A DNA stretch of 25,423 nt from a virus. The stretch spans positions 1-25,423 of IMG/VR virus record IMGVR_UViG_3300028829_004147; one strand, given 5' to 3'. Under the pieces are notes generated by a model. The model was not told the origin of the DNA. It saw only the letters and a program-made list of their open reading frames with translations, and ran no database searches. Both the position numbers and the translations under genes were made by a program. This document shows positions 1,734-21,544 of this stretch, in pieces. Position 1 is the first letter of the stretch. Every line of letters starts with the position of its first letter.

Positions 1734-1766
1734 ACACTATCGTACTTATCGTACATCATATAGTGT
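1734..1766 (+). other. Leader hairpin upstream of scaffold gene
   Basis: ACACTAT (1734-1740) pairs with ATAGTGT (1760-1766). Inside, GTAC (1742-1745) can pair with GTAC (1751-1754). It lies in the presumed 5' leader of the scaffold-capsid mRNA. It could stabilise the mRNA or affect translation; no function is demonstrated. Confidence 0.4.
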
Positions 1767-1832
1767 AACCGATTAAAACTAATCTAATTATAGTTCTCAA
1801 TAACTATATTGAATCCAAAAGAGGAAAACATA

Positions 1833-2996
1833 ATGGATGATTTATTAAAAGACGCTATTGCTGACGCAAAAGCAGTTAGAGAAACTGCACTTGCAAACGC
1901 TAAAATAGCACTTGAAGAAGCATTCACACCACGTTTGAAATCAATGCTATCTCGTAAAATCGAATCGGAAATGGACCAAGAAGAAGAAATGGAAGATGAA
2001 GATGAAATGAGAGAAGAAGAAGATACTGAAGAAGAAATGATGGACAAGGATGAAATGGAAGACGCAGAAGAAATGAAAATGGACGCTGAGGAAGAAATGG
2101 ATGCCGAGGAAATGATGGACAAAGAAGAAGGTGAAATGGACGCTGAGGAAGAAATGGAAATGGACAAAGAAGAGGAAATGGACGCTGACGAAATGAGAAT
2201 GGACGCAGATGAAATGGAAATGGACAAAGAAGAAGAAATGGACGCTGAAGAAGAAGATGAACTTGATTTAGAATCAGTATTAGCTGAATTAGAAGCAGAC
2301 CTTGAAAAATCAGAAGAAGATGACTTAGATGAAGTCGAAGACAAAGACGAAGAAGAAAAAGTCGATGAAAATGACGTATCATCAGAAATTGGAAAAGCTG
2401 ACAACAAGGTTGCTGATAAAGCAAATGACTCATCATCAGTAGGACAAGGTCCTGAATCTGAAGGTTCAGATAAGAAAGCAGGAGACGAACTTGGCGACCA
2501 CGACGTTGTTAAGGAAGTTGAAGACAAAGACGAAATGGAAGACAAGGATGAAGAAGACCTTGACTTAGACGAAGTCTTAAAAGCACTATCTGAAGAAGAA
2601 GACGCTGAAGAAGAAGCAGACAAAGTGGATGAACTTAAAAAAGAAATACAAGAAACTCGTAGTGTAGTAAAATTCATGCGAGCAAAATTAAACGAAGTTA
2701 ATTTATTGAACGCTAAACTATTGTTCTCGAACAAATTGTTTAGGGCATTTGGATTGAACAACGAACAAAAACTCAAAGTTGTCGAAAACTTTGACAGAAC
2801 TTCAAACTTAAGAGAGGTTAAATTGGTTTACGCTACATTAGCAGAATCATTTAAAAGACCTTCTAAATTAAGTGAGGCAGTTTCTAAAGGTTCAAGTTCA
2901 AAACCAGTTGCTTCTACAAAGCCAGCAAAAGCTGAAGTTTTGTCAGAAGGAGCTGAAATGAAAGCAAGATTCAAGAAATTAGCAAACATACTTTAA
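1833..2996 (+). CDS. 22: Prohead core scaffold protein, gp22-like
   Basis: The start is ATG 1833, preceded by GAGGA (1821-1825) at 7 nt. The frame also opens eight codons upstream at TTG 1809, but that start lacks an SD. The 387-residue product has a helical N-terminus (about 1-45), then a long Glu/Asp/Met tract (about 46-260) with repeats of the type MDxEEEM. A conserved C-terminal part holds LNEVNLLNAKLLFSNKLFRA, FDRTSNLREVKLVYATLAES and a final basic helix. The C-terminal pattern matches T4-type gp22, the internal prohead scaffold that guides gp23 assembly and is later degraded by the gp21 protease. Its place directly before the capsid gene agrees. The 13-nt gap to the capsid ATG suggests co-translation. 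Confidence 0.85.
   Translation: MDDLLKDAIADAKAVRETALANAKIALEEAFTPRLKSMLSRKIESEMDQEEEMEDEDEMREEEDTEEEMMDKDEMEDAEEMKMDAEEEMDAEEMMDKEEGEMDAEEEMEMDKEEEMDADEMRMDADEMEMDKEEEMDAEEEDELDLESVLAELEADLEKSEEDDLDEVEDKDEEEKVDENDVSSEIGKADNKVADKANDSSSVGQGPESEGSDKKAGDELGDHDVVKEVEDKDEMEDKDEEDLDLDEVLKALSEEEDAEEEADKVDELKKEIQETRSVVKFMRAKLNEVNLLNAKLLFSNKLFRAFGLNNEQKLKVVENFDRTSNLREVKLVYATLAESFKRPSKLSEAVSKGSSSKPVASTKPAKAEVLSEGAEMKARFKKLANIL
1975..2260 (+). repeat. Low-complexity acidic repeat tract in scaffold gene
   Basis: Imperfect, in-frame reiterations of GAAGAAGAAATGGACGC-type units encode runs such as EEEMDAEE and EMEMDKEE. The reverse strand reads as a long Ser-rich open frame purely as a by-product. Such tracts can change length by slippage. 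Confidence 0.8.
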
Positions 2997-3009
2997 GGAG
3001 TAGACTAAA

Positions 3010-4677
3010 ATGAGTAAATTAAATTCAATAGAGTCATTAATGGACGGATATAATCCACAAAGACAACTATTAGAACAAACTCGTCAGTTAGTATCAAAAT
3101 GGGAACCAACAGGTCTTTTAGAAGGTTTAGAAGACGAAACTAAAGTTCACGGAATGGCAGTATTGCTTGAAAATCAAGCAGGACAGTTAATCCAAGAAGC
3201 TTCAGTTACTGGTGGACAGAATGCAGAAGAATGGTCAGGTGTAGCCTTACCATTAGTAAGAAGAATATTTGGTGAATTAGCAGCACAAGAATTTGTGTCA
3301 GTTCAACCAATGAACTTACCTTCTGGTCTGATTTTCTATCTTGATTTTAAATATGGTACAACCCAAACAGGTAACCATACTAAAGCAAGTGACGTATATG
3401 GTAACACATCAGGTTCTAATGTTGACGCAAGTGGTGGTTTATATGGAGCCGGTAAATTCGGATATTCTATAAATGACGCTACAACAGGCGATACATTACG
3501 TATTCACGCATCTAACACAGATGCTGACCAGTACACAACTGGTTCAGTTTCTTGGTCAGATGTTGATTTCGAACCAGACCTTTCAGCATCAGTAGCATTA
3601 GGTACATCAGCTGACAATGGTTTAGTTAAAATTACAACTGGTATTGAAGCATACACAAACCCAGATAAAGAGGGAGTGAGAGCATTCTCAATCTCAGGTT
3701 CTGGTTTTGATGAATTCTTCCCAGCTTACACAAAGATAAATTCAGCAGAAACTGAAATTAGCTTTATTGTTAAAAAATCAGTAGCAACAGCACCATTAAG
3801 TGCTTCAGTCGCTTACCACAAACAGCCGGTAACCAACTATACAAGAACTGATTTTGAAGCAACAAATGCACAAGTAGACGCAAACCCTGAAACTGATATC
3901 GATATACCAGAATTAGACATTGCGTTAAAGAGCATTCCAATCATAGCCAAAACTCGTAAGTTAAAAGCAGTCTGGACTCCAGAACTTGCTCAAGACTTAA
4001 ATGCATACCATTCAGTTGATGCCGAAGCAGAACTAACATCACTATTAAGTGAGTACATTTCAATGGAAATTGACTTAGAAATTCTTGATATGTTGATGTC
4101 AAACGCTTCAGCTAAAACAGAAAACTGGTCAGCAAGAGTTGGTTTTGAATACGATTCAAGCGCAAATTCATCAAATGGTGGATTCGTAGAATCAAGTGGT
4201 GCTTCAAATGCTTACACTAAGAATGAATGGTTCCAAACACTTGGAAACAAAATTCAAAGCGTAAGTAATGCAATTCATCAGAAAACACTAAGAGGTGGAG
4301 CTAACTTTATTGTAGTATCACCAGAAACTGCAACAATCCTTGAATCAATTCCAGGATATGCAACAGGTGCTGATGGCGACGCTAACACAAATCAATTCGC
4401 TATGGGTGTACAAAAAGTAGGGGCAATTAACAACAGATACACTGTTTATAAAAACCCTTATATGTTAGAGAATCAAATCCTTGTAGGATTTAGAGGCGCT
4501 AACTTCCTTGAAACAGGTGCGGTTTACGCTCCATATGTTCCAATGATTATGACACCGTTAGTATATGACCCTAAAAACTTCACGCCAAGAAAAGGTGTGA
4601 TGACTAGATACGCCAAGAAAATGGTTCGTCCAGAATTCTATGGTAAAGTCATAGTTGCAGATGTAAACTTCGTGTAA
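3010..4677 (+). CDS. 23: Major capsid protein, gp23-like
   Basis: ATG 3010 follows AAGGAG (2995-3000), which overlaps the scaffold stop. The 555-residue product has clear T4-type gp23 features: LPLVRRIFGELAAQEFVSVQ, QPMNLPSGLIFYLDFKYG (residues about 100-118), RKLKAVWTPELAQDL, ISMEIDLEILDML, and the C-terminal PYVPMIMTPLVYDPKNFTPR. It forms the hexamers of the HK97-fold head. LIQE-A at residues 60-64 fits the (L/I)-x-E cleavage rule of the gp21 prohead protease and sits almost where T4 gp23 is cut (after Glu65). Mature protein would start near Ala64. The gene is followed by a terminator, so scaffold plus capsid form a unit. The protease gene is not in this window. Confidence 0.97.
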   Translation: MSKLNSIESLMDGYNPQRQLLEQTRQLVSKWEPTGLLEGLEDETKVHGMAVLLENQAGQLIQEASVTGGQNAEEWSGVALPLVRRIFGELAAQEFVSVQPMNLPSGLIFYLDFKYGTTQTGNHTKASDVYGNTSGSNVDASGGLYGAGKFGYSINDATTGDTLRIHASNTDADQYTTGSVSWSDVDFEPDLSASVALGTSADNGLVKITTGIEAYTNPDKEGVRAFSISGSGFDEFFPAYTKINSAETEISFIVKKSVATAPLSASVAYHKQPVTNYTRTDFEATNAQVDANPETDIDIPELDIALKSIPIIAKTRKLKAVWTPELAQDLNAYHSVDAEAELTSLLSEYISMEIDLEILDMLMSNASAKTENWSARVGFEYDSSANSSNGGFVESSGASNAYTKNEWFQTLGNKIQSVSNAIHQKTLRGGANFIVVSPETATILESIPGYATGADGDANTNQFAMGVQKVGAINNRYTVYKNPYMLENQILVGFRGANFLETGAVYAPYVPMIMTPLVYDPKNFTPRKGVMTRYAKKMVRPEFYGKVIVADVNFV

Positions 4678-5563: not shown

Positions 5564-6718
5564 ATGGCTCAAGAAGCAATATGGCCAGGAAGTGGTTCTG
5601 CGGCAAGTGGTTCCACACCATTTGGGTTATACGATACTGATTCAGACTTTCAAACAGAAGCACCAAAAGTTGCAAAATGGTGTGCGCAAAGACTTGGTTA
5701 TCCAATAACCGCAGTTGAAATGCAAGATACGCAATTTTATGCTTGTTTAGAAGAATCAATATCAGAATATTCTGCACAAGTTAATCAATTTAACATTCGT
5801 GACAACTTATTAAATCTAAGAGGACAAGCAACAAGTTCAAACTTTACTCACAAAAGAGTTAAATCAACTTTATCTGAGGTAATTTTTATCTCGGAAGAAT
5901 ATGGACAAGAAGCACAAGTTGGTGGTACGGTAGATTTTAAAAGAACCGCAGTATCTATAAATTCTGGAAGTCAAGTTTATGATTTAAATAATGTAATTAG
6001 TGAAGTAAGTCATTCTGGACAATCAATTGAAGTTAAAAGAGTTCATTATGAAGCAAGTCCAGCAGTAACGAGATACTTTGACCCGTACGCGGGTACAGGT
6101 CAAGGAACATATAATATGTTGGATGGATTTGGTTTTGGAAATCAATCACCAGCAATTACTTTCGTATTACAGCCAATTTTTGCAGACTTACTGAGAGTCC
6201 AAGCAATTGAATTTAATGACCAGATTAGAAAATCTGCTTATTCATTTGAAATTCGTAATAATCAATTAAGAGTATTTCCAGTTCCAACCCAATCAGGTTC
6301 ATTATGGGTAGAATATATACTAACAGATGATAGAGATAATCCTTTAAGAACACGATATAGTGGTTCTGCGGATGTAGTATCTGATTATTCTAATGTAAGA
6401 TATGATAATATGGTTTACAATAAAATCAATGATGTTGGTAAACAATGGATAAGAAAATACTCATTAGCATTATCAAAAGAACTATTGGGTATTGTTCGTT
6501 CTAAATACGGAACTATTCCAATTCCAAACTCTGAAGTTTCATTGGATGGGGATACATTGAGAGCTGAGGCAGCAGCGGAAAAAGAACAATTAATAGAACA
6601 ATTGAGAGAGAATCTTGAACAAACAAGTCGTAAAGCACTTATGGAAGCTAAGCGAGATGAGAGTGAATTTGAACAAGAAACATTGAAGAAAGTTCCTTAC
6701 CCAATTTATATAGGATAA
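5564..6718 (+). CDS. 13: Neck protein, gp13-like head-completion protein
   Basis: ATG 5564 has AGGAG at 5553-5557. The 384-residue product contains KWCAQRLGYPITAVEMQDTQ followed by FYACLEESISEYS, the connector-type helical pattern (RLGxP-x-VEMxDxQ-x-x-x-x-x-EEAI) seen in gp13-type neck proteins. A beta-rich middle follows, with LRVFPVPTQSGSLWVEYIL. The C-terminal helix region reads SKYGTIPIPNSEVSLDGDTL, then EAAAEKEQLIEQLRENLEQ, again typical. T4 gp13 (309 aa) is somewhat shorter. It joins the portal to the tail in the neck. The next gene starts 5 nt after the stop codon, forming an operon with the gp14- and gp15-like genes. Confidence 0.78.
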   Translation: MAQEAIWPGSGSAASGSTPFGLYDTDSDFQTEAPKVAKWCAQRLGYPITAVEMQDTQFYACLEESISEYSAQVNQFNIRDNLLNLRGQATSSNFTHKRVKSTLSEVIFISEEYGQEAQVGGTVDFKRTAVSINSGSQVYDLNNVISEVSHSGQSIEVKRVHYEASPAVTRYFDPYAGTGQGTYNMLDGFGFGNQSPAITFVLQPIFADLLRVQAIEFNDQIRKSAYSFEIRNNQLRVFPVPTQSGSLWVEYILTDDRDNPLRTRYSGSADVVSDYSNVRYDNMVYNKINDVGKQWIRKYSLALSKELLGIVRSKYGTIPIPNSEVSLDGDTLRAEAAAEKEQLIEQLRENLEQTSRKALMEAKRDESEFEQETLKKVPYPIYIG

Positions 6719-6722
6719 ATAA

Positions 6723-7208
6723 ATGGCAAGTCGTTATTACCCACAGAAAGACTTGGACACCATAGATAAATTTAATAGAGAATTATTAGGTGAACCAAAT
6801 TTAAGTAAAGATGGAATTATAAACCAAACCGTAATTGTATATAAGGTTTCAGTTTATGATACCGAATCCAATATGTATGGAGAATCAGCTGAAGGCAAAG
6901 TTTATAAGCCAGGTGTTCAATTACCTTGTCTTGTAGACGCAGAAGACTTTGACTTCAATACGGATGAGTTTGGACCAGATAAAAGACAAAACGTCGTATT
7001 TGCATTCCAAAGAGATTATTTGGTTGAAGTAGACCTTAGACCAGAAATTGGTGATATAGTAAATTGGAATGATGGTTATTTTGAAATCAATGCGTTCAAC
7101 GAAAACCAATTAGTAGGTGGAAACACAGACAACAATCACTCTATTATAGCAACTGCACATCTAACAAGATTATCAATAACAAATATTGAACAACAACGAG
7201 GTTTCTAA
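6723..7208 (+). CDS. 14: Neck protein, gp14-like head-completion protein
   Basis: ATG 6723 is preceded by AGGATAA as a weak SD and lies just after the gp13-like stop, so coupling is likely. The 161-residue product has beta-rich signatures of gp14/head-tail connector proteins: LVEVDLRPEIGDIVNWNDGY, then FEINAFNENQLVGGNTDNNH, and a C-terminal HLTRLSITNIEQQRGF. The 'PEIGD...Y/FEI' stretch matches the gp14 pattern. It is shorter than T4 gp14 (256 aa). It probably forms the ring between the gp13-like protein and the tail terminator. Its stop overlaps the next ATG by 1 nt. Confidence 0.62.
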   Translation: MASRYYPQKDLDTIDKFNRELLGEPNLSKDGIINQTVIVYKVSVYDTESNMYGESAEGKVYKPGVQLPCLVDAEDFDFNTDEFGPDKRQNVVFAFQRDYLVEVDLRPEIGDIVNWNDGYFEINAFNENQLVGGNTDNNHSIIATAHLTRLSITNIEQQRGF

Positions 7209-8899
7209 TGGCAAGAAATAAACCAATACCAAGAAGTCAACGATTGGAATTTAATCGTGGGACCAAAGTCAGTCGTAATTCGCCTGCCGTAAAGGATGAT
7301 GTAAAAAATGTATCAGTTGGTCTTATGGATATGGATAGTTCTATCTTGTTCTATTTTAATAATGTAATCAAGCCAGAAGTAGAGGAAAACAAAGAAAAGG
7401 TAAAGGTCCCTTGTTTATACGCATCACCAGAAAGATGGGTATCAATTCAAAAGAATGGATTTATAAGGGATAAACAGAATCAAGTTATTGTTCCATTAAT
7501 TGCATTTAAGAGAACAGCAATGGAAAAAAATCAAGACATTCCAATTGACAAGTTAGATGCGAACAAACCAAGAAACTTCTACTCATTTCAGAAAAAATAC
7601 TCACAAGTTAATCGTTACGACAAATTCAGTATCCAACAAGGTCTATCACCAGGTAGAGAATATTACAATGTAACAATGCCAGACTACGTAACTTTGACTT
7701 ATGAGTTTACAATTTGGACTTCATACATTGAGCAAATGAATAAAATTATTGAAAAGATAATGTATTCTGAGGGTTCTTATTGGGGTGAACCAGGTAAGAT
7801 GAGATTTAGAACTCAAATAGAAAGTTATACAGACGCTTCTGAAATGGAAGCAGAAAGACTTATAAAAACAACATTTACAGTAAATTTATTCGGATATATT
7901 TTACCTGAATCATACAACAATTATACGACAACACAAAAGTATCTTACACCTAAAAAAATTATAATGAGAGAAAATGCCGATACCACATTGGTAGATGAAA
8001 CAGGTAGAGTTTCATTGGCAGACAATTCAGCAGTTGAGGGTGGAGCCCCAACAAAAGATTTATTTTCAATATCCGTAACTGAGGGATTAACATTTACACA
8101 AGGAACGGGTGTAACGATATCCAATACGGGTGTTTCATTTGATGGCTCAAACGCACTAACGCAGGCAATATCTATTGGACAACCAGTAGGAACTACCGAT
8201 AGTGTTACATTTAATCAAGTAACAGCAAGTAGTGCTTTACAAATTGGAGATTCATCAACAAAATACACTACAACGGGTATAAGTGGTAGTATAGATATTA
8301 CGGGTTCATTAGTTACTACGGGTAATTTAACCGTAGCAGGAAATGCCACAATCAACGGAACACTAACCGCCAATGAATTCCATACCGTAATGACTTCTGC
8401 TTCAATATTGTTTGAAAGTGGTTCAACAAAGTTTGGTAATTCAACAGATGATAAACACGAATTTACAGGTAGTGCACAGACAACGGGTTCATTTAAGTTA
8501 AATGGATATAGTGTAGACGAGATATCAAACGACACAAGTTTAACAGATGGAAGTGCAACTGCATTAGTAACGGAGAATGCAGTAAAAACTTATGTTGAAG
8601 CAAACACAACAACCGTTTCAGGATATTTAAGAAAACAATTTGTAAAAGTATCATCCGGTGTTTCTAATGCTTCAACGGCAAGTTTTAGTAGTGTTGCAAG
8701 CGCATCCGCACCAACAGGATATACAGCAACAAGTGAAAATGATTTTATATTTTTTATTAATGGGCAATATATGGAACACGATGCTTTAACAATACAGCAA
8801 GCAGGTTCCAACTTTTTATTAAAGGTTAACACAAGTGGTATAGGATATACATTAGAAAGTGATGACGAAATTTTAGCAATTGGTAAATTTAATTCATAG
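7208..8899 (+). CDS. 15: Tail terminator (gp15-like) fused to a C-terminal fibre
   Basis: ATG 7208 overlaps the previous stop. The 563-residue product has two parts. Residues about 1-250 look like a gp15-type tail terminator/sheath stabiliser: VPCLYASPERWVSIQKNGF, then IVPLIAFKRTAM, then VTLTYEFTIWTSYIEQMNKI with IIEKIMYSEGSYWGE, then FTVNLFGYILPES. This parallels T4 gp15 (272 aa) motif by motif. Residues about 265-563 are Thr/Ser/Gly-rich fibre repeats (TGSLVTTGNLTVAGNATING, FESGSTKFGNSTDDKHEFTG). They end in a compact domain (about 435-563: VDEISNDTSL ... LESDDEILAIGKFNS) that is paralogous to the whole C-terminus of the next gene. T4 gp15 carries no such fibre, so this is an unusual fusion. 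It would place fibres at the neck. Confidence 0.8.
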   Translation: MARNKPIPRSQRLEFNRGTKVSRNSPAVKDDVKNVSVGLMDMDSSILFYFNNVIKPEVEENKEKVKVPCLYASPERWVSIQKNGFIRDKQNQVIVPLIAFKRTAMEKNQDIPIDKLDANKPRNFYSFQKKYSQVNRYDKFSIQQGLSPGREYYNVTMPDYVTLTYEFTIWTSYIEQMNKIIEKIMYSEGSYWGEPGKMRFRTQIESYTDASEMEAERLIKTTFTVNLFGYILPESYNNYTTTQKYLTPKKIIMRENADTTLVDETGRVSLADNSAVEGGAPTKDLFSISVTEGLTFTQGTGVTISNTGVSFDGSNALTQAISIGQPVGTTDSVTFNQVTASSALQIGDSSTKYTTTGISGSIDITGSLVTTGNLTVAGNATINGTLTANEFHTVMTSASILFESGSTKFGNSTDDKHEFTGSAQTTGSFKLNGYSVDEISNDTSLTDGSATALVTENAVKTYVEANTTTVSGYLRKQFVKVSSGVSNASTASFSSVASASAPTGYTATSENDFIFFINGQYMEHDALTIQQAGSNFLLKVNTSGIGYTLESDDEILAIGKFNS

Positions 8900-8907
8900 G
8901 GACGATA

Positions 8908-9771
8908 ATGAGTGTTCCTAAATTTATACTTAAAAACCCAATAACAATCGAAACACCAACAGGTGTTACAGGAAGTATTGATAGTAATGTTTTTGAATCA
9001 CAAGACTTTTTTTTAAAGAACTCAAGAAATGTTGTATTGAGAATTGGACAAGCAGTTTCTACGAGTTCAAATGTTCAGTTCTCAAATGTAACGAGTTCAA
9101 ATGTAGTAAAAATTGGTAACTTATTTTTGGGTGATGGATTCATTAGTAGTTCAGCAAGTTTAGTTTCACACACAGGTAGTATAGTCGTAACGAATCAACT
9201 AACTGGTAGTGGAAATATGACACTAAACGGAACACTAAATGCAACAAAGATTGAAGCAAGTGTTAGTGAATCTTTCACATTGTTTGAAAGTGGTTCAAGT
9301 ATATTCGGAGACACTACAGACGATAAACATATGTTGACAGGTAGTGTTGATATAACGGGTTCATTTAAATTAAATGGGTATCAAGTAGATGAAATATCAA
9401 ATGATACTTCATTGGCTGGCAGTAGTACAACTTCTTTACCAACTGAAAATGCGGCAAAACAATACTTTATATCTACTGGTGCTTTTGATAAAAACACTTA
9501 CATTAGAAAGTCATTTGCACATACAGGAAGTATTACAAATTCTGCAACTGCAAGTTTTACCGCGATAACAGCATCAGCACCAAGTGGACTAACAACTACA
9601 AGTGAAGAAGATTTTATGTTTTTTGTAAATGGTATGTTGATTGAGGGAGACGCATTAACAATACAACAAAAAACATCAACTAATTTAGAGTTAAGATTAA
9701 ACACATCAGGTTTAGGATACTCATTAGAATCAGATGATGAGGTCGTAGGATTTGGTAAATTTAATAGTTAG
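8908..9771 (+). CDS. Short fibre/whisker-like protein, paralogue of the upstream fibre domain
   Basis: ATG 8908 follows GGGA at 8899-8902, 8 nt after the previous stop. The 287-residue product lacks the terminator domain. It begins MSVPKFILKNPITIETPTGV, and then carries the same fibre modules as the preceding protein: IGQAVSTSSNVQFSNVTSS, FESGSSIFGDTTDDKHMLTG, SFKLNGYQVDEISNDTSL (from about residue 152) and the ending GLGYSLESDDEVVGFGKFNS. The near-identical C-terminal domain suggests gene duplication and perhaps co-assembly with its neighbour. Receptor or neck-fibre function is inferred from repeat type and position. Confidence 0.75.
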   Translation: MSVPKFILKNPITIETPTGVTGSIDSNVFESQDFFLKNSRNVVLRIGQAVSTSSNVQFSNVTSSNVVKIGNLFLGDGFISSSASLVSHTGSIVVTNQLTGSGNMTLNGTLNATKIEASVSESFTLFESGSSIFGDTTDDKHMLTGSVDITGSFKLNGYQVDEISNDTSLAGSSTTSLPTENAAKQYFISTGAFDKNTYIRKSFAHTGSITNSATASFTAITASAPSGLTTTSEEDFMFFVNGMLIEGDALTIQQKTSTNLELRLNTSGLGYSLESDDEVVGFGKFNS

Positions 9772-9803: not shown

Positions 9804-12449
9804 ATGGCAAATATTAAGGGAAAACAACTATCGGGTAATTTAGCAGTAACTAATGTTACGGCAAGTGGACACATTAGTGGAAGTAATACTTCTACGGGTT
9901 CATTTGGTAACGTGCAAGTCGTTAGAAGTATGACAGCAGCAAATGTTTCAGCATCAGTTATTCAAGCTACTCAAGGAACAATCGATATCCACTCATTGAG
10001 TGGTTACGTGGCCAACGAAAACATAGACCATACATCAGTAACACTAACAGCAGGAGATGGATTATCAGGCGGTGGAACGATAGCTGCAAATAGAAGTTTT
10101 GCAGTAGATTCTACGGTTTTAAGAACCACAGGTGATAATGTAGTCTCGAGTTCAGCTCAAATCGCATCAAATATTAGTGGTTCATTTACTGCACCAAGTG
10201 CGAGTTTCTCTACAAGGGTAACTACTGCAGAATCAGAACTAAGTAATACTTTATTTAGTAGTTCCGCACAAGTAGACCACGACTCTACAACAAATTTCGT
10301 AGCAAACGAACACATAGACCACACATCAGTTAGTATTACTGCAGGAGCAGGTTTAACGGGTGGTGGAACAATAGCATCCACAAGAGATATCGCAGTCGGC
10401 GCTGGAACAGGTTCAAATATTAGTGGTTCAAGTTTATTAGGTGTGGTTGGAACAGCAACACAAGGAACAATTGATATTCATTCATTGAGTGGATATGTGG
10501 CAAATGAGAACATAGACCATACAAGTGTAACAATTACCGCAGGTGCCGGACTAACAGGTGGCGGAACAATTGCTGCAACAAGAACTCTTGCAGTAGGAGC
10601 CGGAACAGGTGTTACCGTTAATGCAAATGATGTAGCAATCGGACAGGCAGTAGCGGCATCAAGCACACCAACATTCGCAGGACTTACCTTAACGGGTAAT
10701 TTAATATCAGATTCAATAATTAGTGGTAGTAGAGTGGCCACATTAGGAGCGATTACTGGTTCTACAATCTCCGCATCAATTCTTATAGGAACACAAATTA
10801 CTGGTTCCGAAATTTCCGCATCGGTTGCTCAGGCAACACAAGGAACGATTGATATACATTCTTTAAGTGGATATGTAGCAAATGAGAACATCGACCACAC
10901 CTCAGTAAGTGTTATAGCAGGAACTGGTTTAACAGGTGGTGGAACGATAGCTGCAAACAGAACTTTAAATGTGATAGGCGGTGATGGTATAACGGCTAAT
11001 GCAAATGATATAGCAATTACAGCAGCCCAAACAACCATTACATCTTTATTAGCAACTGATATTAAAATCGGTGAAGATGACCAAACAAAAATAGATTTTG
11101 AAACACCAAACGAAATACATTTCTACGCAGATAATACTGAACAGGTTTACTTGGGTGACAATATTTTTGGACCAGAATCCGATAGTGATGTAGATTTAGG
11201 TGCAACAGGTGTTAGATGGAAAGATGCTTTTGTAGATAGTGTAACTGCAACTGGTAATGTAGCAGCAGCTACCATTACAGCAACAGGCGATATCACCACA
11301 GAGGGCGATGTTATAGCAAAAAATTATATCGTAAGTTCTTCAGTAACCCATATGACTCAGTCATTCTTAAGTGGTTCAACTATATTTGGTGATGATACAC
11401 TCGATACACATATATTTACAGGTTCATTACTAATTACTGGTAGTGCACCGACCGACATCACAACAACAAATAGTATATTTGTAGGAAATGATATAACGGG
11501 TTCAATTATTAGTGGTTCAAGTTTATTGGGTGTGGTTGGAACAGCAACACAAGGAACAATTGACCACGATAGTTTAGCAAACTTCGTCGCAGATGAACAC
11601 GTTGCTCACGGCGATGTAAGTATCATAGCAGGTGCCGGATTAACAGGTGGTGGAACAATCGCAGCAAACAGAACTATCAATGTTGTTGGTGGAACAGGTA
11701 TAACTGCAAACGCCAATGAAATAACAACCACAGATGGTGAGATTGTTCACGATAGCTTAAGTGGATTTGTAGCAAACGAACACATAGACCATAGTGGAGT
11801 AAGTGTAACAGCAGGAACAGGATTAACTGGTGGTGGAACAATTGCCGCAACAAGAACCTTAAATGTTATTGGTGGTGATGGAATTACAGCTAACGCAAAC
11901 GACATAGCAATCACCGCAGCTCAAACAACTATTACTTCTTTAATCAATTCAAGTTTAACAAAAATCGGAACAGCAACAGACCAAGAATATATTAAATTTG
12001 ATACATCAAATGAAGTCAATACACACATTAACAATACCGAAAGATTAAGTGTAACAGCAGTTGGAGTAGAGATTACAGGACACGTATCAGCTAGTGGAAA
12101 TATAACGGGTTCAATAATTGAAGCAAGTGGTGATGTTATCGCATTTGGTTCATCAGATAGAAGACTTAAAGACAATATTACACCTATTGAGAATCCATTA
12201 GAAAAAATGGACAAAATTGGTGGTTATACATTTGTATGGAACGATAATCAATCAACATATACAGGAAAAGATGTTGGTGTGGTTGCACAAGAAATTGAAG
12301 AGATTTTACCAGAATTGGTAACAACAAGGGGAACGGGATATAAAGCAGTTAAATATGAAAAGATTGTTCCGTTGTTGATAGAATCAATAAAAGAATTACA
12401 GAAAAAAGTTCAAAAAATAGAAGAGAATTGTGATTGTTTGAACAAATAG
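9804..12449 (+). CDS. Large tail-fibre protein with C-terminal peptidase-S74 chaperone
   Basis: ATG 9804 has only a weak purine SD (AAGAGA, 9795-9800). The 881-residue product is a Thr/Ser/Gly/Ala-rich fibre. Six copies of a roughly 50-residue module (IDHTSVTITAGAGLTGGGTI type) alternate with shorter IxGSxISGS strands. Around residue 510-550 it shares the FLSGSTIFGDDTLDTHIFTG module with both preceding fibres. From Ser784, SDRRLKDNITPIENPLEKMD, then FVWNDNQS, DVGVVAQEIEEILPELV and VKYEKIVPLLIESIKELQKK are the hallmarks of the endosialidase-type intramolecular chaperone (peptidase S74). That domain trimerises the fibre and then cuts itself off near the Ser before DRRLKDN. The mature fibre would be about 784 residues. 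Confidence 0.9.
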   Translation: MANIKGKQLSGNLAVTNVTASGHISGSNTSTGSFGNVQVVRSMTAANVSASVIQATQGTIDIHSLSGYVANENIDHTSVTLTAGDGLSGGGTIAANRSFAVDSTVLRTTGDNVVSSSAQIASNISGSFTAPSASFSTRVTTAESELSNTLFSSSAQVDHDSTTNFVANEHIDHTSVSITAGAGLTGGGTIASTRDIAVGAGTGSNISGSSLLGVVGTATQGTIDIHSLSGYVANENIDHTSVTITAGAGLTGGGTIAATRTLAVGAGTGVTVNANDVAIGQAVAASSTPTFAGLTLTGNLISDSIISGSRVATLGAITGSTISASILIGTQITGSEISASVAQATQGTIDIHSLSGYVANENIDHTSVSVIAGTGLTGGGTIAANRTLNVIGGDGITANANDIAITAAQTTITSLLATDIKIGEDDQTKIDFETPNEIHFYADNTEQVYLGDNIFGPESDSDVDLGATGVRWKDAFVDSVTATGNVAAATITATGDITTEGDVIAKNYIVSSSVTHMTQSFLSGSTIFGDDTLDTHIFTGSLLITGSAPTDITTTNSIFVGNDITGSIISGSSLLGVVGTATQGTIDHDSLANFVADEHVAHGDVSIIAGAGLTGGGTIAANRTINVVGGTGITANANEITTTDGEIVHDSLSGFVANEHIDHSGVSVTAGTGLTGGGTIAATRTLNVIGGDGITANANDIAITAAQTTITSLINSSLTKIGTATDQEYIKFDTSNEVNTHINNTERLSVTAVGVEITGHVSASGNITGSIIEASGDVIAFGSSDRRLKDNITPIENPLEKMDKIGGYTFVWNDNQSTYTGKDVGVVAQEIEEILPELVTTRGTGYKAVKYEKIVPLLIESIKELQKKVQKIEENCDCLNK
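9970..11900 (+). repeat. Six in-frame fibre repeats
   Basis: Related units begin near 9972, 10264, 10452, 10832, 11542 and 11735. Each encodes the H-x-S-L-x-x-[YF]-V-A-x-E-[NH]-[IV]-x-H series and then GLTGGGTIAAxRT. Units 3 and 5 share the VVGTATQGTID lead-in, and units 4 and 6 share the VIGGDGITANANDIAIT ending, indicating duplication or homologous exchange within the gene. The unit spacing is irregular. Confidence 0.85.
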
Positions 12450-12485: not shown

Positions 12486-12767
12486 ATGGCAAAGAAAAAA
12501 GAAATTAAATTCACACAAGAAGAATTAAGTTCATTACAGAGTTTAAAAGATTCTTATTCCAATACTGAGTTAATGTTAGGTAAACTTGAAGTTGCTCGTA
12601 TGCAAACCGAACAACGATTGGAACAGATTGAAAATGACAAACTTCGTTTAGAAACCGAGTATGTTCAAATACAATCACAAGAAACTGAGCTAGTAAGTGA
12701 ACTAAATGAAAAGTATGGAGCAGGTAATCTTAATCCAGAAACCGGCGTCTTCACACCAACAAAATAG
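12486..12767 (+). CDS. Small coiled-coil protein, unknown
   Basis: ATG 12486 has AGGAG at 12476-12480. The 93-residue product is almost one long coiled coil (about residues 8-75: FTQEELSSLQSLKDSYSNTE, then LRLETEYVQIQSQETELVSE). It ends with KYGAGNLNPETGVFTPTK. It has no Cys or membrane segment. It has its own promoter motif and lies between the fibre and sheath genes. A tail assembly or structural accessory role is plausible, but I recognise no named family. Confidence 0.75.
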   Translation: MAKKKEIKFTQEELSSLQSLKDSYSNTELMLGKLEVARMQTEQRLEQIENDKLRLETEYVQIQSQETELVSELNEKYGAGNLNPETGVFTPTK

Positions 12768-12842: not shown

Positions 12843-15251
12843 ATGGCAGAGAGAATAGTAAGTCCTGGTGTATTTACCAGAGAAAAAGATTTATCTTTCT
12901 TACCACAAGGAATTTCAGAAATTGGAGCAGCATTAATTGGACGAACAGAAGAAGGTCCAGCATTTGTTCCAACACAAGTAAGAAATTTTGCGGAGTTTGA
13001 AGAGATATTTGGTAGCGAAAACCAGAATTTTTATGTTCCTTTTACAGCAAAGGAATACTTACGAAGCGCAGGAACGGTAACAATCGTTCGTGTACTAGGA
13101 CTTGGCGGATATCAAAATGACTTTATAGCATTGGGATTGTCGGGTTCATTTGGTGGTTCAACAAATCAACACCAAATAGCAGCAGTATTAAAGCCGTCAG
13201 CAGGCGGTCTTACACTTGATTTAGATGGGGCATCCAGTGCTTCATTTTCAGTAAGTAGTAGTTGGAGTTCATCCACATTAAAAGTAACAAATGGTTCAGG
13301 TGGATTCGATACCCACTCGTTCTCATTTAACACAGGTTCAGCAGAATATATTGACAAAGTATTTAGTTCAGACCCATTAACTACCGAAAAGGGCGTATAT
13401 TTATATAAAAATTATATGGATGTTCAAACAATGGGTGGTATGGATTTAAATGTATCTGCAAGTATAGCTAGTGGTAGTACAAATAGTTTCTTATTTGACT
13501 ACAAGGTAGCTACAACACCTTCAATACAATCACAATTAGTTGGTGGTTCAAGAACAAGTTTATTTAAAGTAAATACTCGTTCACACGGAGACGCTCAAAA
13601 TTCAAAATTTAAATTAGCAATACGTGATATTAGAGAGCCAGTAGATGTAGCAGGAAGTGATTATGGTGACTTTGCTATTGAACTTAGAAGAAACAATCCA
13701 GGTCAAAACAACGATAATGAAGTCTTAGAAAGCTTCCAAAATTGTAATTTTGATGAGGATTCAGTAAACTATTTACCAAGAAAAATTGGTGATAGATATG
13801 TAACTATTGATTCAAATGGAAAATTAACCACTAATGGTGATTATCCAAATCAATCTAAGTTTATTTACATTAGTGATTATACTAGCTTAGTTGGAATTTC
13901 AAAAGGATTAGTTCCTATGGGATTCGGAGCAGTATCATCACCACACAACTCAACATTAGCACTTGACGATAGATTTAAACCATCACTTGATTCATTAGCA
14001 ACAATTCCTTCAGCTTCATTTAAAGGAAACTTCAACGAAGGACAATTAAATAAGTCTGGAAATTTTGATGCGAATGTATTCTATGGTTTTGATTTTGATA
14101 GAGAAACTAACAAACAATATTTAGCACCATTACCATTGAGTATTAGTAATACAACAGGTAATGTTACTATGAGTTTAGAAAATCAATTAGGACACGCAGA
14201 CGCTTCCACATTAGGAACAACATTTTCTGACGCAAGTGAGAAAATTACATTAGCACTTTCTCACAAAGACCAGAGAAAGTTCGTTGTACCGTTTCAAGGT
14301 GGTTTTGATGGATTAAATCCAGCAGTAACAGCATCAGTTGGTTCAGCAATAACTGCAGCTAATTCACAAGGATTTGATTTTACTACATCACTTTCAAGTG
14401 GTTCAGTAGCATTTAAACGAGCAATCAATGCAGTATCCAATCCAGATGAGTTCGATATTAACTTGTTGGTAACACCAGGTATTATCCACTCAATACATCC
14501 AAGCGTAACAAATCACGCTATTTCAAAAGTAGAAGATAGAGCAGATTGTTTCTATATTATGGACGGGTCAGTATATGGTCGTTCAATAGACAATGCAGTA
14601 GCTGATGTTAAAACATTGGATAGTAATTATGTAGCAACATATTATCCTTGGGTTAAAGTAATTGATGAAGTTAAAAACAAACCAACTTGGGTTCCACCAT
14701 CAGTAGTATTGCCAGGTGTATATGCAAATACTGATAGAGTAGCTCACGAATGGTTCGCACCAGCAGGTCTGAATCGTGGTGGTTTACAAAATGTAACAGA
14801 AGCTCAAACAAGGCTAACGCATGCGGAAAGAGATGAATTATACGAAAATCGTATTAATCCTATCGCAACTTTCCCAGGTCAAGGTGTAGTAGTGTTTGGA
14901 CAGAAAACTCTACAAGGAAAACCAAGTGCATTAGATAGAATCAATGTAAGAAGATTGTTGATTAGACTTCGTAAGTTTATCGCATCTACTTCAAGATTCT
15001 TAGTGTTTGAACAAAACAACAATGCAACAAGAAATCGTTTCTTGAATCTTGTAAATCCTTTCTTAGAGCAAGTTCAAGCAAACTCAGGATTGACAGCGTT
15101 TAGGATTGTAATGGACGAAAGTAATAATGGTCCAGATGTTGTGGATAGAAACCAATTAGTTGGTCAGATATTCATACAACCAACCAGAACAGCTGAATTC
15201 ATAGTCTTAGATTTCGTAGTTCAACCAACAGGAGCAGCATTTGCAGACTAA
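12843..15251 (+). CDS. 18: Contractile tail sheath protein, gp18-like
   Basis: ATG 12843 has AGGAG at 12831-12835. The 802-residue product starts with the sheath hallmark MAERIVSPGVFTREKDLSFL, then AALIGRTEEGPAFVPTQVRN and YLRSAGTVTIVRVLGLGGY. The C-terminal sheath domain is clear: LNRGGLQNVTEAQTRLTHAE, DELYENRINPIATFPGQGVV, FGQKTLQGKPSALDRINVRR, and the terminal FIQPTRTAEFIVLDFVVQPT. It polymerises around the tube and contracts at infection. It is longer than T4 gp18 (659 aa); the extra length lies in the middle (about residues 100-480), probably surface-exposed insertion domains. It has its own promoter motif and a strong terminator, so it is expressed as a single-gene unit. Confidence 0.96.
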   Translation: MAERIVSPGVFTREKDLSFLPQGISEIGAALIGRTEEGPAFVPTQVRNFAEFEEIFGSENQNFYVPFTAKEYLRSAGTVTIVRVLGLGGYQNDFIALGLSGSFGGSTNQHQIAAVLKPSAGGLTLDLDGASSASFSVSSSWSSSTLKVTNGSGGFDTHSFSFNTGSAEYIDKVFSSDPLTTEKGVYLYKNYMDVQTMGGMDLNVSASIASGSTNSFLFDYKVATTPSIQSQLVGGSRTSLFKVNTRSHGDAQNSKFKLAIRDIREPVDVAGSDYGDFAIELRRNNPGQNNDNEVLESFQNCNFDEDSVNYLPRKIGDRYVTIDSNGKLTTNGDYPNQSKFIYISDYTSLVGISKGLVPMGFGAVSSPHNSTLALDDRFKPSLDSLATIPSASFKGNFNEGQLNKSGNFDANVFYGFDFDRETNKQYLAPLPLSISNTTGNVTMSLENQLGHADASTLGTTFSDASEKITLALSHKDQRKFVVPFQGGFDGLNPAVTASVGSAITAANSQGFDFTTSLSSGSVAFKRAINAVSNPDEFDINLLVTPGIIHSIHPSVTNHAISKVEDRADCFYIMDGSVYGRSIDNAVADVKTLDSNYVATYYPWVKVIDEVKNKPTWVPPSVVLPGVYANTDRVAHEWFAPAGLNRGGLQNVTEAQTRLTHAERDELYENRINPIATFPGQGVVVFGQKTLQGKPSALDRINVRRLLIRLRKFIASTSRFLVFEQNNNATRNRFLNLVNPFLEQVQANSGLTAFRIVMDESNNGPDVVDRNQLVGQIFIQPTRTAEFIVLDFVVQPTGAAFAD

Positions 15252-15280
15252 GGTTAGATTATAAAATCAACACAAGATAA

Positions 15281-15315
15281 GAAAAACCCCCGGTTCGACA
15301 TCGGGGGTTTTTTGT
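15281..15315. terminator. Strong bidirectional terminator after sheath
   Basis: A perfect 11-bp stem AAAAACCCCCG (15282-15292) / CGGGGGTTTTT (15302-15312) encloses a 9-nt loop. It ends the sheath transcript on the + strand and can also stop the minus-strand island transcripts. Confidence 0.93.
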
Positions 15316-15333
15316 GTAATGAAAGGAGACAAA

Positions 15334-15434
15334 ATGCGAAACAAAATCTGCAGGTGATTTACGCCAAATCACCAAAGGTTGTTTCTAATATCGTGAAACA
15401 CTACATAACCCAATTCGGTTCCAAATTATCGTAG
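15334..15434 (+). pseudogene. Possible broken or frameshifted micro-ORF
   Basis: An excellent SD (AAAGGAG, 15322-15328) precedes ATG 15334, but this frame stops after seven codons (TGA 15355-15357). In the -1 frame an open stretch runs from the A tract at 15343-15346 to TAG 15432-15434. A single -1 slip or a missing A would give a 33-residue peptide, MRNKNLQVIYAKSPKVVSNI onward. It may be a degraded gene, a -1 frameshift or chance. No family is recognised. It lies downstream of a strong terminator with no promoter motif. Confidence 0.25.
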
Positions 15435-15442
15435 TCACCGAA
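15353..15442. other. Cluster of three hairpins, possible structured RNA
   Basis: Three consecutive inverted repeats are present: GGTGATTT/AAATCACC (15353-15373, perfect 8 bp), TGTTTC/GAAACA (15380-15400) and TTCGGT/ACCGAA (15414-15442). On the minus strand they lie in the 3' untranslated part of the 131-aa gene. They could be a 3' stabilising structure, a small RNA or remnants of mobile DNA. It is not a tRNA: no acceptor or T-loop geometry fits. Confidence 0.35.
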
Positions 15443-15457
15443 AACCCACGAATCTAA

Positions 15458-15853
15458 TTACTTAGGATAAATAGCAAAGGTATCGGCGTATTCAGCCAAA
15501 CAATAACCTTGAGCTCTTACATAGCCGTAATGTGTTTTGCTACAACCCCTATACTTAATTCTATAATTGCCAGTCTTCATCATAGTTCTAACCACAGCAT
15601 TCCATCTATACATCATAGGAATACCCTTATATAAAGCTTGTTCAAAGTAAGGAGCTTCATAGTCTTCCAACCTAACAGCCGGTTGATTAGTATTAGCTTC
15701 ATACAATTCCATAGGATTGTGTGCATATTGATAGACATTCATAGTAAATGTCCTATTGTCAAAACCAAAAGCTCTTGGAACTTTCGTATCAGCAAAATCT
15801 CTCATATAAATACCTTCGGTATCAGTTGTAATCGTTTCATTATTTTCAATCAT
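15458..15853 (-). CDS. Unknown 131-aa protein on the opposite strand
   Basis: On the minus strand the start is ATG at 15853-15851, with AAAGGA 7 nt upstream. The frame opens eight codons further, but that start lacks an SD. The 131-residue product begins MIENNETITTDTEGIYMRDF and includes VPRAFGFDNRTFTMNVYQYA, GIPMMYRWNAVVRTMMKTGN and two cysteines near the C-terminus (YRGCSKTH and GYCLAEY). It is rich in Tyr and aromatic residues, with no membrane segment. I do not recognise it. A TTGACA-17-TATATT promoter stands upstream. It interrupts the sheath-tube order on the opposite strand, so it looks like inserted cargo, probably expressed early (inference). Confidence 0.75.
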   Translation of the reverse strand: MIENNETITTDTEGIYMRDFADTKVPRAFGFDNRTFTMNVYQYAHNPMELYEANTNQPAVRLEDYEAPYFEQALYKGIPMMYRWNAVVRTMMKTGNYRIKYRGCSKTHYGYVRAQGYCLAEYADTFAIYPK

Positions 15854-15885
15854 TTCGTTTTCCTTTATCATTATCATAACACTAT

Positions 15886-15914
15886 AATATACAAATACTA
15901 TTTGTAAATGTCAA
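15886..15914 (-). promoter_or_regulatory. Sigma70-type promoter for the 131-aa gene, with palindromic operator
   Basis: Read on the minus strand: -35 TTGACA (15914-15909), a 17-nt spacer, and -10 TATATT (15891-15886), a near-consensus host promoter. Between them lies a perfect 15-bp palindrome ACAAATACTATTTGT (15891-15905), well placed for a repressor or activator site. The promoter shares AAGCTTGAC and TATATTATAGT with the second island promoter. Confidence 0.75.
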
Positions 15915-15922
15915 GCTTTTTT

Positions 15923-15997
15923 TTAATTATTTTCTTCAAAGAGTTCTTCTTCACAATCATCACAAAGGAAAAAGCCGTCTATTTCAACGCCACTCAT
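15923..15997 (-). CDS. 24-residue CxxC micro-ORF
   Basis: On the minus strand ATG 15997-15995 begins 25 codons ending in TAA at 15923. The product starts MSGVEIDGFFLCDDCEEELF and ends EENN. Cys12 and Cys15 form a CxxC pair in a highly acidic peptide, which suggests metal or redox binding or a truncated zinc-knuckle. The start lies about where the transcript of the second sigma70-like promoter should begin, so it would be leaderless (no SD). It could also be a chance frame; the well-placed promoter is the main support. Confidence 0.45.
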   Translation of the reverse strand: MSGVEIDGFFLCDDCEEELFEENN

Positions 15998-16002
15998 ACT
16001 AT

Positions 16003-16031
16003 AATATAGTTATTCCTAATGACAAAGTCAA
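16003..16031 (-). promoter_or_regulatory. Second sigma70-type promoter on the minus strand
   Basis: Minus strand: TTGACT (16031-16026), a 17-nt spacer, TATATT (16008-16003). Upstream AAAAAGC and downstream ATAGT match the promoter at 15886-15914, so the two look duplicated. This copy lacks the palindrome in its spacer. It faces away from the tail-tube promoter. Confidence 0.7.
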
Positions 16032-16102
16032 GCTTTTTATTATAAAACTTCAATAAAACTTCTAAAACTATATCTTATTTGTCATACACTTTTTTCAGTT
16101 TC

Positions 16103-16117
16103 GTTATATTTATTAAT
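16103..16117 (+). promoter_or_regulatory. Late-promoter-like motif 8 (tail tube)
   Basis: The core ATATTTATTA (16106-16115) lies 36 nt before GTG 16152, the same distance as motif 4 from its gene. The bases 16032-16100, between it and the divergent minus-strand promoter, are AT-rich and hold nothing I can identify. Confidence 0.55.
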
Positions 16118-16151
16118 GTAATAGAAAAGAAATCTTTATAGGAGAAGAAAA

Positions 16152-16640
16152 GTGGCAGATTTTATAGACCCAAATGAAATGTTTTTTACACCATTTGAAC
16201 CAAAGTTATCAAATAGGTTTATTATGAACATTGAGGGTATTCCAGCATTTTTGGTTAAAACAACAGGAAGACCTAATTTAAATTTAAACGAAGTTGCACT
16301 TGACCATATTAATGTTAAAAGATATGTTAAAGGTAAAGCTGAGTGGCAAGCACTTACAGTAACTCTTTATGACCCAATCGTTCCAAGTGGAGCACAAGCA
16401 GTTATGGAGTGGGTAAGATTACATCACGAATCAGTAACAGGTCGTGACGGATACTCAGACTTCTATAAAAAAGATATTACATTTAATGTATTAGGACCAG
16501 TTGGTGATAAAGTAGAAGAGTGGACTTTAAAAGGTGCATTCATCACTGCAGCTAACTTTAGTGATATGGATTATTCAGCAACTAATGTTTCTGATATTTC
16601 ATTAACACTAAGATACGATTACGCAATCTTACAATTCTAA
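16152..16640 (+). CDS. 19: Tail tube protein, gp19-like
   Basis: GTG start at 16152 with AGGAG at 16140-16144; no ATG fits in frame nearby. The 162-residue product is the size of T4 gp19 (163 aa). It has FEPKLSNRFIMNIEGIPAFL, VKTTGRPNLNLNEVALDHIN, ALTVTLYDPIVPSGAQAVME and the ending VSDISLTLRYDYAILQF, all typical of the tube fold. It forms the stacked hexamer rings inside the sheath, around the tape measure. It is split from the sheath gene by the minus-strand island; in T4, 18 and 19 are adjacent. Confidence 0.95.
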   Translation: MADFIDPNEMFFTPFEPKLSNRFIMNIEGIPAFLVKTTGRPNLNLNEVALDHINVKRYVKGKAEWQALTVTLYDPIVPSGAQAVMEWVRLHHESVTGRDGYSDFYKKDITFNVLGPVGDKVEEWTLKGAFITAANFSDMDYSATNVSDISLTLRYDYAILQF

Positions 16641-20038: not shown

Positions 20039-20042
20039 TTAA

Positions 20043-21536
20043 ATGGCATTAATAGAATTAAAATCAAATCTATCAAGTAAAGGTAAAACCGTTGATTACT
20101 TTGATAATGAGAATCAAACAGGATTCACATCAGGTAGAGAACAAGGTGATTCTACTGAATTTAACAGACCGGTAAATTCATTGTTCTCAACCAAAGGAAA
20201 GGTTGTGGATTACTTTGATAATAAGAATCAAACAGGATTTACACCAAATAGACAACCAGGTGATTCTACTGAATTTAAAGAACCAGCTAAGTCATTATTC
20301 AATGATAATATAGGTGGAACCAACACTACTGAAACTGGGACTTTTAGTGTCAATCAAAGAGATAACACAGAAAGAAAAACTCAATTTACAGATAACCAAG
20401 TAAATGCACAACACAAAAAATTTAAACCAGACGACGACCAACTAATCACACACGACATAGGTGACAAATATAAAGGAACAAGTAAAGATGGTGGTTTTGT
20501 TCGTGGTGGTTTTGTATTGAATACCGATAGACAAATAGAGGACGCAAAAAGACTAACTAAATTTTTAGCAACACCAAAAGGATTTTTATTCAAAGAAAAA
20601 CAATCGGTTTTACAAAAGAAAAATGCAAGACCAGAAACACGGGAATATGATAGAACATCAATTATTAGAAATATAGACTCCGTAACTGAAGTTCTTAATG
20701 GAGATGTATCAGAAGCAGGACAAAATCGTCATACTGGTAATAATTATGAAAATAATCCACAGACTTTTCAAGGAAAAGTAAATTCAGCAGCAGTTTCTTA
20801 CTTTTCAACCACACAAAATGTAGGAGTATCAGGTAGTAAAAAACTTCAAGTTTTATATGGTGGTGAATTTGGTTCAATAAATAAAGTTCCAGGTTCTACA
20901 ATAAACGATAAAAAAGAAACAACACTTGATACCAAAGGTTCAGATGACTTTATTAAATTTAAAATCCGAGATGCAGTCAATGGTAAATGGATTATATTTC
21001 CAGCATTGATTACAGGTATTACGGATAATTCACAAGCGAGTTACAACAAAATACAATACATAGGAAGACCAGATTCAGTTCACGTTTATCAAAACTTTAA
21101 TCGTAGTATTTCATTTAGTTTAAAAGTATTAGCTACGAACGAAAATGAATTAGGTATAGTGTGGCAAAAAGTAAGTGCATTAAAAGGTTTAACACAACCT
21201 TCATTTAAACCATTTTTCTATGAAAATAATGATAGTAGAGTGGGAGAAAAATTTACAAGACCAACAGCACCCTATGTCTACTTAACTATTGGTGATATGT
21301 TTAAAAACACACCAGGTTATTTTGAATCAGTCAATGTAACGATTCCTGAAGCTTCATCTTGGGAAATCATAGACGGAGCACAATTTCCACATATGTGTGA
21401 TATAAGTTGCACTTTCCAATACATTGGAAGAGAATTACCATCAACACGAAGTCTTAATTATGATGGACTTAAAGAGGGTATTCGTGGACAAAATAAATTA
21501 ATAAAAGACAAAATACCAACAGCTGAATTTGTATAG
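20043..21536 (+). CDS. 48/54: Baseplate / tail tube cap protein, gp48/gp54-like
   Basis: ATG 20043 lies 4 nt after the tape measure stop. The 497-residue product has a C-terminal core that fits T4 gp48/gp54-type tube-initiator proteins: KWIIFPALITGITDNSQASY, NKIQYIGRPDSVHVYQNFNR, SISFSLKVLATNENELGIVW, then APYVYLTIGDMFKNTPGYFE and CDISCTFQYIGRELPSTRSL. This cap sits on the hub and nucleates the tube. The first 90 residues hold two tandem 36-residue repeats (13-48 and 51-86) with KGKxVDYFDNxNQTGFT. The middle (90-260) is polar and Gln/Asn-rich, without recognised domains. The N-terminal part is an addition relative to T4 proteins of 320-364 aa. Confidence 0.75.
   Translation: MALIELKSNLSSKGKTVDYFDNENQTGFTSGREQGDSTEFNRPVNSLFSTKGKVVDYFDNKNQTGFTPNRQPGDSTEFKEPAKSLFNDNIGGTNTTETGTFSVNQRDNTERKTQFTDNQVNAQHKKFKPDDDQLITHDIGDKYKGTSKDGGFVRGGFVLNTDRQIEDAKRLTKFLATPKGFLFKEKQSVLQKKNARPETREYDRTSIIRNIDSVTEVLNGDVSEAGQNRHTGNNYENNPQTFQGKVNSAAVSYFSTTQNVGVSGSKKLQVLYGGEFGSINKVPGSTINDKKETTLDTKGSDDFIKFKIRDAVNGKWIIFPALITGITDNSQASYNKIQYIGRPDSVHVYQNFNRSISFSLKVLATNENELGIVWQKVSALKGLTQPSFKPFFYENNDSRVGEKFTRPTAPYVYLTIGDMFKNTPGYFESVNVTIPEASSWEIIDGAQFPHMCDISCTFQYIGRELPSTRSLNYDGLKEGIRGQNKLIKDKIPTAEFV
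20079..20300 (+). repeat. Tandem 114-nt coding repeat
   Basis: Two in-frame copies at 20079-20186 and 20193-20300 (period 114 nt, 38 residues) encode KGK[TV]VDYFDN[EK]NQTGFT, then GDSTEF and SLF. The high similarity indicates a fairly recent internal duplication. Confidence 0.9.
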
Positions 21537-21544
21537 GAGTTACA

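Follow-up and report, generated by a model that had tools for sequence, protein, structure and literature searches.

A fibre-bearing gp15-type tail terminator recurs in T4-like phages and may form neck fibres

Results

A terminator-fibre gene in T4 gene order

The DNA analysed here (the window) is a 25,423-base virus contig from a T4-like phage whose major capsid protein is Gp23 by Pfam; the named phages nearest to it by capsid, among the matches listed, are uncultured phage LR756508, Microcystis phage Mel-JY01 and the Flavobacterium phages immuto. Compared with T4's own gene order, the window presents the same succession of gp13, the gp14 position and gp15, followed further on by sheath and then tube (Table 1). 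In the gp15 place lies an uninterrupted open reading frame (7208-8899) that begins with an ATG overlapping the stop codon of the upstream gene and encodes 563 aa, as against 272 aa for T4 gp15, which has no fibre. The 161-aa protein encoded immediately upstream gave no match in a PDB search and nothing significant in a Pfam search. Small ORFs resembling the one directly 5' of the sheath gene lie between a plain gp15 and the sheath in two relatives (L201, L084) and 3' of the sheath in another (L085). The window is tightly packed apart from the sheath-tube interval (15252-16151), where about 900 bases hold short ORFs only, on both strands. The stretches 18179-22830 and 22827-25181 contain long tail-region ORFs (619, 497, 326 and 784 aa) with no PHROG match at E 0.01.

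Table 1. Features of the neck and tail region of the window
Feature	Position	Strand	Basis
gp13-type neck protein	5564..6718	+	phrog_211, 9.7e-14; profile matches T4 gp13 chains, E 5.7e-8
Small protein (161 aa) in the T4 gp14 place	6723..7208	+	identity by position only; same upstream neighbour in 8 aligned loci
gp15-type tail terminator + fibre + C-terminal domain (563 aa)	7208..8899	+	ORF, fold, family
gp15 core, residues 32-239	7301..7924	+	VIA-align to 4huh_F, Z 13.2; mean pairwise identity 0.64 (37 full-length rows)
Conserved KYLTPKK stretch, then variable low-confidence linker, residues 240-287	7925..8068	+	pLDDT <50; identity 0.35
Fibre segment, residues 288-475, S/T/G/N-rich	8069..8632	+	composition; beta strands in models
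C-terminal domain (CTD), residues 476-563	8633..8896	+	mean pairwise identity 0.71; pLDDT mostly 75-94
Free fibre + CTD copy without gp15 part (287 aa)	8908..9771	+	50% identity over 268 columns
Third fibre gene (881 aa), Peptidase_S74 chaperone end	9804..12449	+	PF13884, 1.6e-16; PHROG tail fibre families
Small protein (93 aa), directly 5' of sheath gene	12486..12767	+	similar small ORFs in L201, L084, L085
Tail sheath (802 aa)	12843..15251	+	phrog_23, 5.7e-76
Tail tube	16152..16640	+	phrog_4542, 4.1e-30

The N-terminal part is homologous to T4 gp15

An earlier note on this DNA had proposed that the first 250 residues follow T4 gp15 motif by motif and that the remainder is a fibre. The identity of the protein as a gp15-type terminator is firm. 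The Pfam family PF16724 (T4-gp15_tss) matches the window protein at E 1.2e-4 with 21.8 bits, short of the gathering score of 25; of 47 family members it matches 43 at E 0.01 or better (best E 3.1e-9). A PDB search with a profile built from 12 family sequences found the T4 gp15 chains 4huh (E 5e-4) and 3j2m (E 6e-4) and nothing else up to E 10. Smith-Waterman alignment of the window protein with T4 gp15 scored 93, against a mean of 35 and a maximum of 69 in 500 shuffles. We modelled the single chain with AlphaFold2 from 47 sequences (mean pLDDT 64.9, with much of the core at 75-87 and values below 50 for residues 112-155 and in the linker). The gp15-like fold that the earlier note had asked structure prediction to find was recovered: the six best Foldseek matches of the model were all T4 gp15 (best E 2.6e-7), as were the two best in VIA-align (Z 13.2 and 12.8 over 156-157 residues; rmsd 4.5 over 156), and many of the other chains listed by VIA-align come from the tail terminators or necks of other phages. 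Profile match, fold matches and shuffle scores together rule out a chance resemblance. Sequence and model thus place residues 32-239, approximately, in homology with T4 gp15, and the relationship is real yet distant: identity in the structure alignments is 15-19%, too low for the motif-by-motif likeness first described. On the tail, the gp15 part modelled here as one chain would form a hexameric ring.

Directly after the core comes, in most plain gp15 copies, a conserved stretch like TTQKYLTPKK, and no more than about 75 residues separate the core match from their C-terminus. Fused proteins have the stretch as well, with the fibre starting past it. The terminators of Vibrio phage XM1 (PMC10457771) and Staphylococcus phage 812 (PMC12886913) are described, in the excerpts of these reports, as ending in a strand shared with the sheath and buried there. 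By analogy, the KYLTPKK stretch is possibly a sheath-binding arm, past which the fibre would continue by way of a flexible linker.

A fibre segment and a conserved C-terminal domain

The segment that follows the linker differs sharply in composition from the gp15 part, with 51% S/T/G/N and 13% charged residues or His against 24% and 27%. Its single-chain models contain short beta strands. The "fibre repeats" of the earlier note did not materialise, as no pair of 15-residue windows in this part shares at least 8 identities. Foldseek returned no PDB match for the fibre model at E 0.001 or better and five matches, mostly uncharacterised, in a viral structure library. From its sequence and models the fibre part may be an elongated trimer. 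Fibritin_C (PF07921) is not among the Pfam matches of the window protein, and Laminin_G_3 (PF13385) is absent from both the fused and the free protein of the window.

The 88-residue CTD is the better-predicted domain and the most conserved section of the fused protein, ahead of the gp15 core and the linker. It aligns with the CTD of the immuto-type gp15 and has no sequence relatives in the phage collection, where the immuto CTD itself finds immuto phages only; its sequence has no convincing match in PDB sequences or PHROGs. The best fold match, a chain of the cyanophage A4 portal-tail complex (9k09_U; Z 7.3, rmsd 2.0 over 68 residues), and the remaining ones at Z 4-6 fall below a telling level; some of the chains matched are presumably fibre domains (T7-type fibre N-terminal domain).

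A free copy of the fibre lies next door

Eight bases past the stop codon of the fused gene begins a second gene that repeats its 3' part (DNA repeat offset about 872 nt). The earlier note had seen a C-terminal domain common to the two genes, which holds, and the sharing is wider than that: the whole fibre and CTD align with nearly the whole of the next protein at 50% identity over 268 columns (score 598; shuffled maximum 112). This arrangement is general among relatives. Among the 82 fused loci whose downstream sequence runs to 1100 bases or more, 74 have a CTD gene next door, directly adjacent in all but 3 of the 74, where it is 467-491 nt off. The other 8 lack one, and so do all 47 loci with gp15 and CTD without a fibre. 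Of 75 pairs compared, 72 show collinearity between the free copy and the entire fused fibre, at 39-57% identity; the 3 exceptions have a short fused extension of 203-205 residues.

Two predictions of close coupling between the genes failed. Joint length variation was not seen, as the lengths of fused and free fibres are uncorrelated (Spearman -0.18, p 0.12), and neither was concerted evolution of the two CTDs, whose identity is 0.535 within a locus and 0.532 between loci. In seven pairs the partner is longer, at 489-512 aa, and all seven carry a Laminin_G_3 domain 3' of the CTD (L042, L124, L235, L236, L238, L246 and L250).

The fusion recurs among relatives

We collected 289 distinct loci from seven viral-contig scans (best 80 or fewer matches each) and named records, so that the counts below are not natural frequencies. 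Copies of the window (L081, L082) and T4 (L265) were left out beforehand, and duplicates were merged by gp15-domain sequence. Loci were classed mechanically by the number of residues after the gp15 match: plain below 100, intermediate at 100-179 and long at 180 or more. Among the matches listed, the gp15-fibre-CTD gene is found in 79 of the 289 loci, 68 of them alone and 11 behind a plain copy. A further 89 have plain gp15 only, 59 have an extension of 100-179 residues (55 with CTD), 11 have a long extension without a CTD match, unrelated ones (L270, L390, L400) included, and 40 have truncated copies. The sheath gene is visible in 52 of the 289, so the gp15-sheath gap rests on few. The same fusion was thus borne out in related phages, and because it recurs in 79 loci from many samples, assembly artefact and frameshift are ruled out as its source.

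In a tree of 175 of 259 rows (18 random long and 18 intermediate rows from the earlier scans plus all others), a single clade of 56 rows, with support 99, holds the fused and tandem copies sampled; elsewhere in the tree plain gp15 is common. The gp15 open frames of T4, P-SSM2, S-PM2 and HTVC008M are plain, at 268-282 aa against 563 aa here. Since most distant relatives are plain, as in the 89 loci above, the extension is not required for gp15 function. Within the immuto set, copies with gp15 and CTD are mixed with plain copies from very close relatives; one of these (L201) is 89% identical, and its 293-aa gp15 is plain, with an 83-aa gene and then the sheath downstream. The extension is therefore accessory and can come or go while the terminator gene stays. 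The deposited annotation of immuto, a phage isolated on Flavobacterium sp. LMO8, labels the gp15-CTD protein "hypothetical protein" and some nearby genes "structural protein"; a single-sequence scan with the Microcystis phage protein found no relatives.

The earlier note had looked to relatives with the two parts as separate genes for evidence against the fusion. Many relatives do have a plain gp15, one locus is split and free fibre copies lie 3' of fused genes, but a free CTD gene beside a plain gp15 was found in none of 82 plain-only loci from the two later scans and in one of 8 from the earlier scans (L185). In that locus (1748-3007) an in-frame stop cuts a gp15-CTD gene in two, with a plain gp15 on one side and a CTD frame of 92 residues on the other, which could reflect decay, read-through or a sequencing error.

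Single and doubled terminators

In contigs of 58-132 kb with one fused copy, that copy is the single gp15 match in 9 of 9 (G001-G007, G010, G014), although the contigs may be partial in completeness. As these long contigs show no second gp15, the terminator is probably the fused protein. Tandem loci, with a plain gp15 ahead of a second copy, make up 22 of the 289 among the matches listed: the second copy is fused in 12, truncated in 8 and plain in 2. In the tree, plain copies are nested at several places in the fused clade, where well-supported branches force at least four label changes, which indicates from sequence that plain copies arose repeatedly. The two tandem copies hardly differ in closeness to the outgroup (0.41-0.47; the fused one closer in 11 of 17), so neither looks decayed. 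Measured against single fused copies, the plain tandem copy is farther than its fused partner in 17 of 17 pairs. Fibre dosage or a division of labour could explain the tandem loci.

Lectins and other extensions on gp15

The fibre is one of several extensions found on gp15. In L400 the protein ends in a lectin (Laminin_G_3, E 8.4e-18), and this part matches positions 124-390 of the 394 of PHROG 347, "tail terminator", at 6e-29. PHROG 347 has no match to the window protein. A search for phrog_347 in T4, P-SSM2, HTVC008M, S-PM2, RM378 and six other records found it in L400's own record only, and no annotated phage with the L400 lectin part was found; the match itself suggests that the annotated terminators may include a family extended in a similar way. 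The gp15 of L270 ends in a region matching phrog_26223. L388, L390 and L396 form one tree set, whose extensions, where read (L388, L390), are W/Y-rich, with two repeats seen by eye in L390; L415 and L345 carry other extensions without a match. Given this variety, the terminator seems to be a recurrent attachment point.

Discussion

Our analysis leads us to favor a model in which the window phage, a contractile phage of the T4 type, carries neck fibres that are covalently anchored as part of the terminator ring, and we consider this model likely. In this model the N-terminal gp15 domain would form a hexameric ring atop the tail, and each chain would run on past the likely sheath-binding arm into a flexible linker, the fibre and a compact end domain. 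With a gp15 ring from whose C-termini fibres extend, neck fibres are the natural reading, and the position of the fibre in the virion and its function follow by analogy. Such fibres would probably work like the whiskers of T4 or the collar spikes of XM1, in extra contact with the host surface or glycans or in control of the tail fibres; of these roles, surface contact is probably one they serve. One structural point argues against the model: if the terminators of XM1 and phage 812 are a guide, the fibre must leave the ring where the C-terminus is buried in the sheath. Also on the negative side are the "hypothetical protein" label of the immuto gp15-CTD protein, the absence of a lectin from the window's fused and free proteins, and the many distant relatives with a plain gp15. 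By extension to the relatives, a large group of marine T4-like phages probably has a tail-top ring with a long built-on fibre, so that neck fibres would come as part of the ring and not be added later as in T4.

In lactococcal 936 phages, the neck structure is separate and not fused to the terminator. These siphophages bear carbohydrate-binding modules in the neck passage structure, so the likeness to the window phage lies in glycan-binding parts at the neck (PMC6669499, in excerpt). T4 gp15 is the closest counterpart of the window protein in fold (residues 32-239), PF16724 membership and gene-order place, and the T4 whiskers offer an analogy for fibres at the neck. The whiskers consist of fibritin (gp wac), described as a coiled-coil protein in its own right that binds to the neck (PMC3004832, PMC12270204) and, in the excerpted newer neck work, as sitting on gp13 (PMC12270204); a fibre attached covalently to gp15 would therefore be a different placement at the neck. 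Fibritin_C has a match in T4, the positive control, and in none of 14 related records, a set that lies outside the window record and whose metagenomic members may be incomplete. XM1 offers a nearer parallel in its collar spike gp40, reported to form neck-borne fibres that touch the tail terminator and proposed to sense the host; gp40 is a protein of its own, 839 residues long, that attaches through its N-terminal domain, whereas the fibre here is fused to the terminator (PMC10457771, in excerpt). The terminator gp99 of phage 812 resembles the window protein in bearing an added domain, but the addition there is a beta-sandwich serving as a clamp on the sheath, not a fibre (PMC12886913, in excerpt). 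No terminator-fibre fusion was recognised in titles and abstract starts of a literature search that left subscription journals mostly outside its scope. The known neck fibres described above are separate proteins bolted on, and a fibre built on the terminator would fix their number and place by genetics.

How many fibres the ring would bear depends on the partners of each chain. The earlier note had predicted six, from the hexameric ring, a number that our results do not support. If the fibres are trimeric, the six chains of a ring would make two homotrimers; pairing of each fused chain with two free copies would raise the number to six and would resolve the mismatch between six-fold and three-fold symmetry. 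We regard such mixed trimers as a tentative possibility. The collinearity of the free copy with the fused fibre and its presence in nearly all fused loci, against none of the loci with gp15 and CTD alone, speak for them, but eight fused loci lack the CTD gene, so that the partner is not always needed, and neither the fibre lengths nor the CTDs of the two genes track each other within a locus. The number could also be set on the other side of the linker if plain and fused terminators shared one hexamer, with the recurring plain copy tuning how many subunits bear fibres. The 22 tandem loci, the repeated nesting of plain copies within the fused clade and the lack of decay in either copy are consistent with a mixed ring. 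We find it doubtful, as most fused loci, the window included, have no plain copy next door, and the greater distance of the plain tandem copies from single fused ones could mean another role, such as a second ring. Against the favored model, plain copies in the tandem loci could make the ring itself with the fused protein as an accessory. A further reading makes the fused gp15 domain a mere dock for a whisker on the neck, with another protein as the true terminator. The plain copy kept in tandem loci speaks for that reading; we think it distinctly improbable, since the long contigs with one fused copy, incomplete as they may be, hold no other gp15 match and the fused gene occupies the normal gp15 place after gp13.

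It is also conceivable that the fibre part is not displayed at all and instead wraps the neck as a collar or clamps the sheath, making no contact with the host. The CTD is more conserved than the gp15 core (0.71 against 0.64 over 37 rows), which would be unusual for a host-range tip; the collar of Milano is described, in the excerpt of its report, as carrying no fibres (PMC10491603), and the clamp of the phage 812 terminator provides a precedent. The lectins on free copies and on the L400 terminator point the other way, to surface binding, and we judge a purely stabilising role rather unlikely. Of the covalently anchored neck fibres that we favor, the lectin-bearing versions further suggest glycan contact well away from the baseplate. 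One could go beyond the single phage and envision the terminator ring as a covalent display platform, with fibres, lectins and other binding domains grafted on gp15 and their number set both by free copies that complete trimers and by plain paralogues that dilute the fibre-bearing subunits. We offer this broad version as a speculation that is quite unlikely to hold in full. Whatever its fate, plain, fused and doubled terminators constitute a natural series for testing the purpose of neck fibres.

Several mobile-looking or small genes accompany the terminator in relatives. A small conserved ORF with an MRKR start and four cysteines lies downstream of the gp15 and fibre genes in five loci (L017 6621-6902, L040 6597-6875, L052 5692-5985, L050 7888-8175 and L241 8168-8446) and by eye looks like a zinc-finger protein or a relative of homing endonucleases. 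Endonuclease-like ORFs, again by eye, occur among the tail genes of L241 (7588-8193, GIY-YIG type) and L201 (8989-9615, HNH type), and in L085, a 484-kb phage record, an ORF that appears TnpB-like by eye (2646-3968) lies directly upstream of the gp13-type gene.
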